Source of the DNA: Butyrivibrio sp.
GTDB taxonomy: Bacteria > Bacillota > Clostridia > Lachnospirales > Lachnospiraceae
Direction: 5' to 3'
Assembly (NCBI GenBank): GCA_024690485.1
Contig: JAILPB010000050.1
Location: forward strand, 1-48,004
DNA: 48,004 bases
A program made the translations under genes and the position numbers. Below the pieces are notes generated by a model, which ran no database searches, was not told where the DNA came from, and worked only from the letters and a program-made list of their open reading frames with translations. Of the stretch, positions 27,864-47,580 are shown in pieces (position 1 is the first letter of the stretch; every line of letters begins with the position of its first letter).

Positions 27864-28200
27864 TGGCTGCAACTAATGAAAATGTTAGTTGCGGCAGTGG
27901 ATTCTGAGGAGAATTTGAAGAATTTTTCTGCTGCAAATAAGAGATGATTGAATTGTAGCATTGAATTCTGGCTTAAAATGTGGGGAAATCCACTGCTGCA
28001 AAAGGCAATAAGAGGAAAAGCGGTAGAGAAAAAGTGTAAAAATGGACTACCGCAAATGGAAGATAATAAATATGCGGCATTAAATTCGGCGAATAATGCG
28101 AGAAAAGTGACTACTGCAAATGGACGAAAATGAATATGCGGCATTAAATTCGGCGAATAATGCGAAAAAAATGACTGCCGCAAATGGGAGCGGAAGGAAA
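27864..28200 (+). repeat. Imperfect hairpin array, period 64/65 or 54 bp
   Basis: Left arms of a hairpin about 33-34 nt long begin at 27864, 27928, 27993, 28047, 28111 and 28175, i.e. steps of 64, 65, 54, 64 and 64 bp. Examples: GCTGCAACTAA with TTAGTTGCGGC (11 bp), TGCTGCAA with TTGTAGCA, CTGCTGC with GCGGTAG. The two units at 28047-28110 and 28111-28174 are nearly identical over 64 bp. Non-Watson-Crick pairs are G-U on the plus strand. The array fills the gap before the prfC promoter and contains no believable gene. Confidence 0.8.
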
Positions 28201-44092: not shown

Positions 44093-44356
44093 ATGGACAA
44101 GAACAGAATTGAAGAACTTCTCGAGCTTACGAGAGTCAATGAGCTGCTGGCTAAGAAAGAGGCTGCAAATGCCAAGAAGCCATCAAATATAGTTTTGTGG
44201 GTACTGGCTGTATTTGGAGCAATCGCTGCGGTAGCAACAATAGCTTATTTTGTGTTCCAGTACATGATGCCTGAATATGAAGACGACTATGATTTCGACG
44301 ATGATGACTTCGATGATTTCGATGATGATTTTGTCGATCTGGATCTGGAGAAATGA
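44093..44356 (+). CDS. Small single-pass membrane protein with Asp-rich tail
   Basis: 87 residues. An N-terminal charged helix (MDKNRIEELLELTRVNELLAK), a single hydrophobic segment (VLWVLAVFGAIAAVATIAYF, about 41-62) and a tail of almost only Asp/Phe/Glu. ATG 44093 follows AAAGGGGG. Its TGA overlaps the rlmD ATG (ATGA), so the two are translationally coupled. Family not recognised; the acidic tail might bind cations or basic proteins. Confidence 0.85.
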   Translation: MDKNRIEELLELTRVNELLAKKEAANAKKPSNIVLWVLAVFGAIAAVATIAYFVFQYMMPEYEDDYDFDDDDFDDFDDDFVDLDLEK

Positions 44357-45774
44357 AAAAAAAAGATATAGTAAGTGGCAAGATTTTAAGAGTTGAATTC
44401 CCTAATAAGGGAGTAATGGAGACACCTGAGGGAAAGGTAATCGTTAAGAATACCCTTCCCGGACAGAAGGTGTCATGTGTGATAATCAAAAATAGAAATG
44501 GCAGAGCTGAGGGCAGACTCCTTGAAGTATTGGAGGAGCCCAGCGATGCTATCGAAAGTCCCTGCATCCATTTTGGAAAATGCGGAGGCTGTAGTTACCT
44601 TACCATGCCTTATGTAAAAGAGCTCGGAATGAAGGAGCAGCAGGTAAGGAGAATTCTTAATCCTATTCTGGAAAGTCAGAAACAGAGTTATACATGGGAG
44701 GGCATAAAGACCAGTCCCGTGAAATTTGCGTACAGAAATAAGATGGAGTTTACCTTTGGAGACGAGGAGCTTGGCGGCCCCTTGACTCTTGGCATGCACA
44801 AAAGAAACAGTATGCATGACATAGTAAGCGTCACAGGATGCAGAATTGTTGATGACGATTACAATCAGATCTTAAGTGCGACACTTGAGTATTTTTCCAA
44901 GGATTATAGTGAAGGAAAAATCAGCTTCTACCACAGAATGAAGCAGACAGGTTACCTGCGTCATCTTCTTGTCAGAAAGGCTGTTAAGACAGGAGATATC
45001 CTCATCGATATCGTGACAACAACACAGGAAAATCACGATTTATCCGGTTACAGGGATATGCTCCTTACTTTGGATCTGTCAGGACACATAGTAGGTATCC
45101 TGCATACGATCAATGATTCCAAGGCAGATGCTGTAATAGACGAGGGCACAACCCTTCTTTATGGTCAGGATTATTTTTATGAGGAGCTGTTGGGACTTAG
45201 ATTTCGCATAACACCCTTCTCATTTTTCCAGACCAATTCTCTTAGTGCGGAAGTTCTCTATGACACTATCAGAGAATACATCAGCGGTCTATATGACAAT
45301 ACCAGTGAAGATCCCGGAGATAAGGTTATCTATGACCTCTACTGTGGAACCGGAACTATTGCTCAGATAATTGCACCTATTGCAAATAAGGTAATCGGTG
45401 TTGAAATAGTCGAAGAGGCTGTCCTTGCAGCCAAGGAGAACTGCGCCCGCAATCATCTCACAGATTGTGAGTTTATTGCAGGTGACGTCCTTAAAGTTCT
45501 GGACGATATCGAAGTTAAACCTGATCTCATAATCCTTGATCCTCCTCGTGAGGGCGTAAATCCTAAGGCCCTCGCCAAGATCATCGATTATGGTGTTGAT
45601 CACATGATCTATGTAAGCTGTAAACCTACTTCTCTCGCCAGGGACCTTGAAATGCTACGCGACGGCGGCTACTACATCCAGAGAGCCGTAGCCGTAGACC
45701 AGTTCCCCTGGACAAATCATGTTGAGACAGTAGTCCTTTTGACTAGGACCAAAGGGACGACGTCGAAAGGCTAA
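44353..45774 (+). CDS. rlmD: 23S rRNA (uracil-1939-C5)-methyltransferase RlmD/RumA family
   Basis: SAM-dependent RNA m5U methyltransferase with TRAM domain (residues about 1-60), iron-sulphur cysteines (CIHFGKCGGCSYLTM) and C-terminal Rossmann domain: SAM motif YDLYCGTGTIAQI, LDPPREGVNPKAL and nucleophile Cys in YVSCKPTSLARDLEML near 423. 473 residues. The usual C-terminal motif HVETVVLLTR is followed by eight extra residues (TKGTTSKG) whose end, including the TAA, lies in the first copy of a 35-bp direct repeat. Exact uracil target (1939 or related site) is not certain from sequence. Confidence 0.92.
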   Translation: MKKKDIVSGKILRVEFPNKGVMETPEGKVIVKNTLPGQKVSCVIIKNRNGRAEGRLLEVLEEPSDAIESPCIHFGKCGGCSYLTMPYVKELGMKEQQVRRILNPILESQKQSYTWEGIKTSPVKFAYRNKMEFTFGDEELGGPLTLGMHKRNSMHDIVSVTGCRIVDDDYNQILSATLEYFSKDYSEGKISFYHRMKQTGYLRHLLVRKAVKTGDILIDIVTTTQENHDLSGYRDMLLTLDLSGHIVGILHTINDSKADAVIDEGTTLLYGQDYFYEELLGLRFRITPFSFFQTNSLSAEVLYDTIREYISGLYDNTSEDPGDKVIYDLYCGTGTIAQIIAPIANKVIGVEIVEEAVLAAKENCARNHLTDCEFIAGDVLKVLDDIEVKPDLIILDPPREGVNPKALAKIIDYGVDHMIYVSCKPTSLARDLEMLRDGGYYIQRAVAVDQFPWTNHVETVVLLTRTKGTTSKG

Positions 45775-46008
45775 CGCTGTCCATGCGATAGCTGTCCGCG
45801 ATTGGCGAGAGCGGAGCACGAACACAGAGGGGAGACAGCGAACCGCTGAAACCGTAGCTCTCTTGACGAAGGCAAGCGTAAGCGCAGGCTGAGTCTAGAG
45901 ACTACGAGTTGTTCCGGATCGCCTGCTTGCAGGCGAGAGCGGAACTTCCTTATGAAATAGTGGAGGGAATCACGGCTAACGCTGTCCATGCGATAGCTGT
46001 CCGCGATT
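45769..46008 (+). repeat. 35-bp perfect direct repeats bounding a GC-rich hairpin element
   Basis: A 35-bp sequence at 45769-45803 recurs exactly at 45974-46008 (offset 205). Each copy contains GCTGTCC twice. Between them lie GGCGAGAGCGGA twice and a two-part hairpin (45911-45945): GTTCCG/CGGAAC outer stem, internal loop, CGCCTG/CAGGCG inner stem and CTTG tetraloop. The region is GC-richer than the surroundings and non-coding. The left copy supplies the rlmD stop codon. Confidence 0.8.
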
Positions 46009-46020
46009 TATGACTATTTT

Positions 46021-46045
46021 GCAGTCCATCTACTTGGTGGACTGC
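46021..46045 (+). other. 10-bp hairpin at the start of the repeat region
   Basis: GCAGTCCATC (46021-46030) pairs with GGTGGACTGC (46036-46045) with one G-U, loop TACTT. The core words GTCCATC, TTG and TGGAC recur at 46564-46578, so copies lie on both sides of the 53-bp array. Confidence 0.65.
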
Positions 46046-46135
46046 TACTATTCTTTTTTTCGAAATATAGGCAGTGCAAAGCAACAATCTTGGTGCTGCT
46101 GATATTCCAAATTATAACTAAATATATCTTGTTTT

Positions 46136-46506
46136 CTGCCACCTGGGGAGTATTTGTAATAGTGGCAGCCAGTTTAACGAGGCGTATTCTGCCACTATTC
46201 AAGGATTGCAGATAGTAGCAGTTGATTTTTAAGGGTGGATCCTGCCACTATTCCTGTTTTGCTAAAAGTGGCAGTGGAATTATCGACATGCATACTGCCA
46301 CTATCAAGGAAATTAGAATAGTAGCAGAAAAACACTACTAAAAATCACTGCCACTATCTAGGAAATTGAAAAAGTAGCAGGAAAATGATACTAAAAAGCA
46401 CTGCTACTATTACGAAAACTGAAATAGTAGCAGGAAAACAATGTTAAAAACCACTGCCTATTTTGAATATTACGGAATAGTAGCAGGAAGAAGGGCTAAA
46501 TAATGG
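46136..46506 (+). repeat. Seven-unit hairpin array with exact 53-bp period
   Basis: Left arms of the type CTGCCACTATT start at 46136, 46189, 46242, 46295, 46348, 46401 and 46454, always 53 bp apart. Each unit is a 33-nt hairpin ending in AATAGTAGCAG or AGTGGCAG, plus a 20-nt spacer. The unit at 46401-46433 is a perfect 11-bp stem with 11-nt loop. Sequences of arms, loops and spacers diverge, but lengths do not change. At the fifth pair four units show C-A on the plus strand, which is U-G on the minus strand. No gene on either strand. Confidence 0.85.
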
Positions 46507-46563
46507 TCTACCCTAAGAAGTTGACACGATAGAAAGTCATTTTGGCAGTATTTTCAGTAGTGA

Positions 46564-46695
46564 GTCCATCTTGTGGACACGAATATGGCTGGAATAATAA
46601 TCCTTCCTGCAAAAAACTAACATGTGGACATGAATCTGGTTGTATAAATATATGAAAACAATAGCAATTCCAACATATGGACATGGATTTAGCTG
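46564..46695 (+). repeat. Three degenerate repeats around (G/A)TGGACA(T/C)G
   Basis: Similar stretches TTGTGGACACGAAT (46571), CATGTGGACATGAAT (46621) and CATATGGACATGGAT (46674) recur at about 51- and 53-bp steps, close to the period of the preceding array. They lie directly upstream of the nuclease-like gene; no long open frame is present. Confidence 0.55.
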
Positions 46696-46776: not shown

Positions 46777-47580
46777 ATGATAGGACTAAAGAAATACTTA
46801 ATAGAAGAAGAGAAAAGACTTAAAAATCTAAAGCAGGTAATAGATAAAAGGCTTGAAAACATACCTGAAGGAAATCTAAGGATAACTTCCTCCGGAAAGC
46901 ATATCCAGTATATGCATTGCAAGGAAAAGAATGGTGAATATCAGAAACAGGGTGAATACTTAAAGAAAGAAGATATGTCGCTGGTCAGAAAACTTGCTCA
47001 AAAGACCTATGATCAGAAGATAAAAAGACTTGTGGATAAGAGACTTAGACAAATTAAGAACATGAATAAGGATTATATGGATAATGAGATTGAGCTTATC
47101 TATACCAATATGAGTATCAATAGACAAGAGTTAGTAAGACCTATTGAAAAGACATGGCAGCAGCGGGTTCATGATTGGAAATCACAGCCATATACTGGTA
47201 AAGAATTTAAGCCAGGTACGCCTGAAATATACACCAAAAAAGGAGAGAGGGTAAGATCTAAGTCAGAGAAGCTGATTGCGGATACTTTATTTGATATGGG
47301 AATTGAATATAAATATGAGTGCCCAATACACTTAAAAGGGTATGGACAGATATATCCTGATTTTACAATTCTTAGTCGCAAAACAGGAAAAGAAATGTAC
47401 TGGGAGCATGATGGCAGAATGGATGATCCGCAATACTCGGAAAAAGCTGTGAAGAAAATAAATTCCTATATCAGTAACGGAATACTTCCGGGGGAGAGAT
47501 TGATTCTTACTTTTGAAACTGCAAATATAGTGCTTAATGATAGGATTATCAAGAAAATGATTGATACTTACTTGGTGTAA
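46777..47580 (+). CDS. PD-(D/E)XK-like nuclease family protein
   Basis: 267 residues. N-terminal two thirds: basic, helical, coiled-coil-like (KKYLIEEEKRLKNLKQVIDK; QKIKRLVDKRLRQIKNMNK). C-terminal third resembles the restriction-endonuclease fold: Glu in RVRSKSEKLIADTLFDMGI, YKYECPIHLKGYGQIYPDF with the core Asp, then KEMYWEHDGRMDDPQYSEK. This pattern (SE...PDF...WEH-G-x-x-D) occurs in a clostridial family of unknown role, as far as I recall. ATG 46777 follows AAAGGAG at longish spacing. No methyltransferase or specificity subunit is visible beside it; a hairpin array lies immediately upstream. Confidence 0.75.
   Translation: MIGLKKYLIEEEKRLKNLKQVIDKRLENIPEGNLRITSSGKHIQYMHCKEKNGEYQKQGEYLKKEDMSLVRKLAQKTYDQKIKRLVDKRLRQIKNMNKDYMDNEIELIYTNMSINRQELVRPIEKTWQQRVHDWKSQPYTGKEFKPGTPEIYTKKGERVRSKSEKLIADTLFDMGIEYKYECPIHLKGYGQIYPDFTILSRKTGKEMYWEHDGRMDDPQYSEKAVKKINSYISNGILPGERLILTFETANIVLNDRIIKKMIDTYLV

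Follow-up and report, generated by a model that had tools for sequence, protein, structure and literature searches.

Palindrome arrays spaced at whole helical turns as candidate sites for a PD-(D/E)XK nuclease in Butyrivibrio and its relatives

Introduction

Why should seven diverged palindromes be kept exactly 53 bp apart? The question is raised by a 48,004-nucleotide stretch of Butyrivibrio sp. DNA (GenBank assembly GCA_024690485.1, contig JAILPB010000050.1), referred to here as the window, in which an array of such palindromes is flanked upstream by an rlmD-like gene and downstream by the gene of a 267-aa putative nuclease. The window is contig C32 of this assembly (G000; 2.26 Mb, 73% complete). 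An original prediction, made from the letters of the window, described the units as hairpins under selection for spacing and left unmentioned the adjoining nuclease gene, which has become the main clue. Modules of this kind occur in many gut and rumen bacteria, the window array being one instance. On balance, we lean towards reading the array as palindromic double-stranded DNA sites for the adjoining stand-alone PD-(D/E)XK nuclease, the two forming a one-gene module that would resemble a REPtron built on an unrelated enzyme. Among the entries listed by a literature search of openly licensed full-text papers, none describes these arrays or this protein.

The array in the window

Seven imperfect palindromes follow one another at an exact 53-bp step over 46136-46506, each unit consisting of a 33-bp imperfect palindrome and a 20-bp spacer. 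The seven left-arm positions and the unit lengths of the original prediction were verified (Table 1), with the refinement that units 1 and 7 are degenerate and that an additional degenerate palindrome lies at 46042-46074. The latter precedes the first unit by 94 bp (about nine turns) and is possibly a relic of the array. Within 46101-46520, self-match reaches 0.58 at lag 53 and 0.54 at lag 106, compared with at most 0.42 at the other lags from 20 to 119, and the best six-unit pairing total is 54, against maxima of 33 in 2000 single-base shuffles of the region (53 phases each) and 36 within window positions 1-46000. Tandem Repeats Finder (TRF) calls a period of 53 at 46294-46458 (3.1 copies, 80% matches, 0% indels, score 211) as well as a longer row reaching 46489 with 4% indels; the first three, more diverged units are not called. 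The pattern CTGCYACTWT N(6-18) RTAGYRGCAG has 14 matches assembly-wide, found only in this array and in one array on contig C7, and its reversed control has none in the whole assembly.

The interval separating the array from the start of the nuclease gene holds three direct repeats, TGTGGACACGAATATGGCTG and its relatives, at 46572, 46623 and 46676, with steps of 51 and 53 bp. This region (46572-46695) is possibly a second, decayed five-turn array with a different motif.

Nuclease genes and arrays occur together

The 267-aa protein carries the pattern SKxE..PD..EHxG, a catalytic E..PD..(D/E)x(K/H) core on the conserved fold of the PD-(D/E)XK (Vsr-like) superfamily, preceded by a basic helix-strand-helix N-terminal part. 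The alignment omitted loci L027, L040 and L043. Arrays beside such genes were sought as inverted 8-mers at a score threshold of 7.5 in 156 nuclease loci, reduced to 146 distinct loci by merging identical C-termini. An array was found in 94 of 286 flanks, equal to 85 of the 146 loci, predominantly upstream (75 of 142 flanks, versus 19 of 144 downstream), and 73 loci have an array whose spacing occurs at least three times. Only 2 of 286 shuffled flanks passed. The rlmD site yielded 58 matches, of which 30 loci were examined, six being too short to judge; the array is present at all ten loci with the nuclease gene and at none of the 14 without it, and thus gene and array come and go together at this site. 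The module occupies the 3' intergenic region of rlmD in the window and in nine others of the 30 loci.

Arm motifs vary freely between clades, and their similarity is correlated with that of the proteins (Mantel r 0.40 over 50 five-turn arrays, reached in 0 of 2000 permutations). Directly upstream of the module, on the same strand, are RlmD-family genes in 14 of 14 cluster members (ten with at least 53% identity, four with 31-36%), GMP-synthase-like genes in 8 of 8, and ribosomal-protein S9-like genes in 6 of 6, the last preceded by an L13-like gene in five; names other than rlmD are readings of the sequence. ABC-transporter-like (13 loci), MATE-like (8) and aminotransferase-like (7) clusters adjoin on varying sides. 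A fixed partner protein was rejected, there being no small recurring set of partner genes.

Spacing in whole helical turns

Among the 94 flanks, 77 arrays have a modal spacing seen at least three times (distances of 35-100 bp considered). These spacings fall at 51-54, 62-64, 74-76, 84-85 and 95 bp, or about 5-9 helical turns, apart from a single array at 44. With each single-linkage protein cluster represented by one value, the Rayleigh statistic at 10.5 bp is 0.88 with clusters at 60% identity (n = 32, p ~2e-11) and 0.89 at 50% (n = 22). Taken at 10.6 bp, the mean phase deviates from zero by no more than 0.3 bp, and therefore the spacings are whole turns, not turns plus a constant. Periods called by TRF, unclustered, from L010-L021, 80 named loci and the window agree, R being 0.66 within 900 bp of the nuclease gene (n = 57) versus 0.22 elsewhere (n = 29). 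On a tree of 72 proteins, 22 of whose 69 inner branches are drawn open, the turn class changes at least 14 times, including well-supported sister switches of 76 versus 63/64, 64 versus 74/75, and 84 versus 74/75 bp; because the class switches in this way, the spacing law is not simply one inherited array length.

The 44-bp array, upstream of the nuclease gene of Kallipyga massiliensis (L173) in a region with runs of N, corresponds to about 4.2 turns and is the only clear departure from whole-turn spacing.

The same rule appears within arrays. Far from being absent, or present with frequent indels or random spacing, homologous arrays are common, and among 270 unit-to-unit steps in 66 arrays with both arms, 218 equal the period of the array, 13 differ from it by about 1 bp, 24 are multiples of it, a unit having been missed, and the remaining 15 are irregular. 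Deviations of 1.5-8 bp do not occur. The shift in most irregular steps is close to 10, 21 or 31.5 bp; counting each value once per array gives 13 irregular deviations, 12 of them no more than about 1 bp away from a multiple of 10.5. In these counts arrays are treated as independent, L115 and L116 being close relatives, and the restriction to both arms was adopted after an uncleaned test of little power (u = 1.72), whose 82 array-step pairs included chance word matches. The five-turn reading of the 53-bp step is thereby strengthened, and selection on spacing, likewise put forward in the original prediction, is supported, the period being kept despite divergence.

Quantised spacing is expected for proteins touching along one face of B-DNA, and we know of no reason for it in RNA processing. 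Whole-turn spacing therefore points to protein sites on one face of the duplex, not to RNA hairpins or a neutral minisatellite. The latter, a row spread by slippage with a functionless step, is extremely unlikely: unit number does vary between relatives and some arrays consist of near-identical units, as slippage would have it, but the period is kept as the sequence diverges, separate clades have periods near multiples of one helical turn, other tandem repeats in the same loci lack such phasing, and the arrays are tied to one gene family. It was accordingly rejected as contradicted by phasing and gene linkage.

Helical phasing is usual for cooperative regulators, and together with the predominance of upstream arrays this would suit an operator, with the nuclease acting mainly as a repressor of its own gene or its catalysis being unrelated to the array. 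We consider this quite unlikely, however, as the catalytic motif is retained in 144 of 146 distinct nuclease copies, some arrays lie downstream and others beside unrelated genes, and some contain at least 20 half-sites (for example, L041 and L124), beyond what a simple operator needs. Plasmid iterons and partition centromeres likewise are tandem protein sites at whole-turn spacing; the present module differs in being chromosomal and palindromic, in having a partner with a nuclease core, and in comprising several turn classes within one protein family.

Probable duplex sites rather than RNA hairpins

Could the units instead be transcribed and processed, as in TIGR-Tas or CRISPR, yielding RNAs that guide the nuclease or act as its decoys? 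As described in PMC12045711, TIGR-Tas comprises a tandem array up- or downstream of its gene, most often of 5-15 units and in some cases of stem-loops, giving 36-nt RNAs with alternating repeats, box C/D motifs and variable spacers that guide a Nop-domain Tas protein, in some cases with HNH or RuvC. A tandem array adjoins a gene in both, and the units here resemble the stem-loop arrays of some TIGR systems; in addition, of four 146-nt stretches taken from the window array, two per strand, three fold with z below -4, and pooled wobble pairs favour the gene's strand (G-T over A-C, 107 to 63, p 0.0009). Per array, however, 27 arrays favour the gene's strand, 21 the opposite and 18 neither, and in the window array the minus strand is favoured 7 to 1. 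Unlike guides, the stretches between palindromes are homologous to one another within an array; modal periods are 44-95 bp rather than about 36 nt; and whole-turn periods and shifts are a signature of duplex DNA. A known RNA was rejected after Rfam scans, which gave no family at the window array (the only match in the window being a tRNA) or at the arrays of five other loci. CRISPR, dismissed already in the original prediction, was rejected as well: CRISPR-Cas loci have near-invariant repeats and unrelated spacers, whereas here both parts are diverged yet homologous within arrays. An RNA array is thus very unlikely. Because wobble pairs favour neither strand consistently, the units, judged by sequence, are better read as palindromic duplex sites than as hairpins.

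Distribution of the nuclease family

Family matches were found in 35 of 61 sampled genomes, with up to nine diverged matches per genome: 34 of 37 genomes of the window's genus (its own included) versus one of the 24 belonging to other genera. Scanning GTDB species yielded at least 581 encoding stretches, the best 80 of which come from Butyrivibrio, Oribacterium, Blautia, Mediterraneibacter, Eisenbergiella, Roseburia, Faecalicatena, Eubacterium, Levyella and Kallipyga, further Clostridia and Lachnospiraceae, three Treponema and three Fibrobacter; within these 80, the best named matches of the window gene are Butyrivibrio. Of 398 genomes sampled evenly across the phylum, 25 match: 19 partially and six at full length, the latter all in the window's own family. 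Matches are scarce among phage records (3 of 50,697, one with at least 80% coverage, located on an unannotated faecal phage contig of 4.2 kb) and plasmids (10 of 72,556, none reaching 80%). A phage or plasmid origin was discarded, no full-length relative being found on plasmids or IMG/VR contigs.

The 267-aa protein has no Pfam match, even at E up to 10, and a sequence search for solved relatives found none (best E 0.39). Its N-terminal part, whose sequence pattern may be of the AP2/integrase-arm kind, would bind DNA, to judge by its charge and position; the fold search returned prefoldins (rmsd ~8-10 A) and assorted helical proteins for it, none of them convincing. No Nop-domain protein is among the 50 fold matches listed, and these two absences exclude neither kind of domain. 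The nuclease part, by contrast, matches the C-terminal part of the PADLOC candidate model PDC-S68 (E 7e-27), and also PDC-S69 (E 2.5e-5) and HEAT_CxxC_PDDEXK (E 1e-4). The PDC-S68 models differ from the 267-aa protein in having 1202-1273 positions with the nuclease part at the C-terminus; the other two have about 288.

This resemblance, the multiplicity of diverged matches per genome and the near absence from phages and plasmids would all fit an anti-phage or anti-plasmid nuclease, for which its own and the orphan arrays would serve as storage or as a self-recognition platform that keeps it off the chromosome. Such a role is unlikely, though worth serious consideration: there is no recurring set of partners, the recurrent upstream genes being of the RlmD-family, GMP-synthase-like and ribosomal-protein kinds, and a pure defence role does not predict the near-identical dispersed array copies described below.

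Orphan and dispersed arrays

In ten Butyrivibrio genomes, matches to CTGCCTATAT N(8-20) RGCAG are mostly clustered at 53/54-bp steps, with some single matches, and the reversed control matches once across all ten. Genome G012 has eleven such sites, one of which is directly upstream of a nuclease gene. Several whole multi-unit arrays fall into families: family A comprises three G012 loci and five of G076 (with about 80-97% identity over the parts aligned by BLAST), some orthologous between genomes; family B comprises four G012 loci of 364-429 bp, 96.6-98.4% identical with differing flanks, plus partial copies; and family C comprises two loci of G084 and one of G012. Families B (in G012) and C (in G084) thus occur as discrete copies in unrelated flanks, in the manner of an insertion element or miniature inverted-repeat transposable element. 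No target-site duplication or terminal inverted repeats were evident by eye at orphan arrays, and no transposase family was found among ten proteins flanking them. A left-end motif like CAGGAWTATGNAYAA stands exactly 32 bp (three turns) before the first arm in 13 array copies; the search covered 34 stretches, one entered twice, and one extra match was judged to be chance.

Arrays also change in length, unit number differing between relatives by whole units: one orphan array comprises six units in G016, against two in G034. A second array of G076, about 56 kb from the nuclease-side array and 86% identical to it over 660 bp, has no nuclease match beside it, and the corresponding place in G073 has fewer units. 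G073 is close to G012 and has no nuclease gene at rlmD; its best nuclease scores 254 bits against the profile, versus 365 in G076 and 362 in G084, and no near-identical family B copy is among the G073 matches listed. The link between having no such close nuclease and lacking family B is suggestive, coming from one genome pair.

Some further observations concern individual arrays. Beside a CTGCCTATAT orphan array of G016 (L016:4250-4800, contig C1) lies a repeat region with another motif (CTGTCTAT..ATGGACAG), matched by the array of a different nuclease at G016:C1:136808, which also matches two more places in G016. Next to one orphan array of G012 (L294:840-1270, contig C34), a flavodoxin-like reading frame was recognised by eye; in L297 (G076, contig C10) that frame is missing and the upstream sequence joins the array after about 40 bp, possibly through deletion or replacement at the array end. 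Control windows L153:7201-8000, L115:8801-9600 and L148:1-800 contain inverted-motif arrays at 41-42 bp (about four turns), more than 1.2 kb from the nuclease gene, which are possibly orphan arrays of a four-turn class.

A proposed REP-like module with a different enzyme

Among known systems, REPtrons come nearest. As described in PMC8266576, a REPtron is a TnpA-REP (RAYT) gene with adjoining cognate REPs, other REPs lying in intergenic DNA; REP palindromes in tandem and alternating orientation form BIMEs, and tnpA-REP is mostly single-copy. Here, too, palindromes occur both beside the nuclease gene and elsewhere in the genome, presumably recognised by the protein. The differences are that the partner has a PD-(D/E)XK core instead of a HuH/Y1 transposase, that the palindromes form arrays of about 300-600 bp with whole-turn spacing, and that a genome carries several paralogous modules. 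By analogy, the module appears closest to REPtrons in behaviour, yet it is not a REPtron, because its gene lacks the defining HuH transposase. Vsr-like homing endonucleases form another comparison, I-Bth0305I being of the EDxHD family. A homing endonuclease cuts alleles without its element, which is then copied into them; the present module has palindrome arrays and a basic N-terminal part, and no intron or intein was seen.

Most plausibly, the basic N-terminal part would bind each palindrome, probably as a dimer, and bound dimers would touch along one face of the helix, so that half-turn changes in spacing would be forbidden and only whole turns tolerated. The docked nuclease would then nick or cut the DNA; repair by unequal exchange would alter unit number, and breaks would let arrays be copied to new places, giving amplification in cis and in trans. 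The array may also restrain the nuclease. More tentatively, with confidence falling somewhat short of even, these may be mobile modules of a new kind, in which a PD-(D/E)XK nuclease forms a helically registered filament on its arrays and amplifies them in trans as non-autonomous elements, with co-diverging specificity and an evolvable register of 5-9 turns.

Several facts weigh against this account of nuclease and array. Binding, cutting and movement are inferred, and the DNA-binding role of the N-terminal part is deduced from charge and position. With respect to linkage, 61 of the 146 nuclease loci have no array above threshold, including five of the six from the one other matching genus (L092-L096); of the six Treponema and Fibrobacter loci, two reach the score threshold and a repeated spacing is present at one; and 11 of 150 control windows elsewhere (about 7%) also pass at 7.5, three of them with a spacing that repeats, in each case 41-42 bp. 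At 40% identity, single-linkage clustering yields just two protein clusters, too few for the phasing test, and co-inheritance alone would yield the correlation between motif and protein. The pooled lean of wobble pairs to the gene's strand belongs here as well. With respect to movement, neither a clean insertion site nor a target duplication was found: at rlmD the difference between G012 and G073 is a replaced segment, the place in G084 that corresponds to one orphan site is not cleanly empty, and the orphan array shared by G016 and G034 is missing from G032 along with about 1.6 kb around it. Finally, a search of the nuclease-side arrays of the window, G008 and G076 did not find the left-end motif, nor was it found at orphan arrays L010, L014-L016, L020, L228 and L229.

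If the account holds, a partner and a testable job would be assigned to a protein family that is common in gut and rumen Clostridia and apparently uncharacterised. The spacing law, whose class changes between close relatives, would be a natural record of protein-protein register on DNA and would predict the outcome of simple insertion experiments. The dispersed copies would represent a REP-like system on a different type of enzyme, bearing on how repeats persist in bacteria, and the diverged nuclease-palindrome pairs would be a natural collection from which to learn the rules of DNA recognition by the N-terminal part.

Other features of the window

Table 1. Features of the array and its surroundings (window coordinates; pairs are Watson-Crick pairs out of 11)
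Feature	Coordinates	Strand	Remarks
rlmD-like uracil-5 methyltransferase gene	44353..45774	+	Pfam tRNA_U5-meth_tr
Terminator-like stem-loop	46021..46045	+	Putative, from consensus scan; 3' of rlmD-like gene
Outlying degenerate palindrome	46042..46074		Arm CTGCCTATAT on minus strand; from pattern match and coordinates
Array, 7 x 53-bp units	46136..46506	none	Arms CTGCYACTAT / ATAGTRGCAG; step ~5 helical turns
Palindrome 1	46136..46168		7/11 pairs, degenerate
Palindrome 2	46189..46221		9/11 pairs
Palindrome 3	46242..46274		10/11 pairs
Palindrome 4	46295..46327		9/11 pairs
Palindrome 5	46348..46380		8/11 pairs
Palindrome 6	46401..46433		11/11 pairs
Palindrome 7	46454..46486		7/11 pairs, degenerate
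267-aa protein gene, proposed array partner	46777..47580	+	Basic N-terminal part and C-terminal PD-(D/E)XK core

Just 3' of the rlmD-like gene, a 35-bp direct repeat (GGCTAACGCTGTCCATGCGATAGCTGTCCGCGATT) occurs at 45769-45803 and 45974-46008, about 205 bp apart, and a related-looking repeat was recognised by eye 3' of rlmD in G012. Far from the nuclease gene, at 28038-28187, the window also contains a tandem repeat with a period of 64 bp (2.3 copies, 88% matches).
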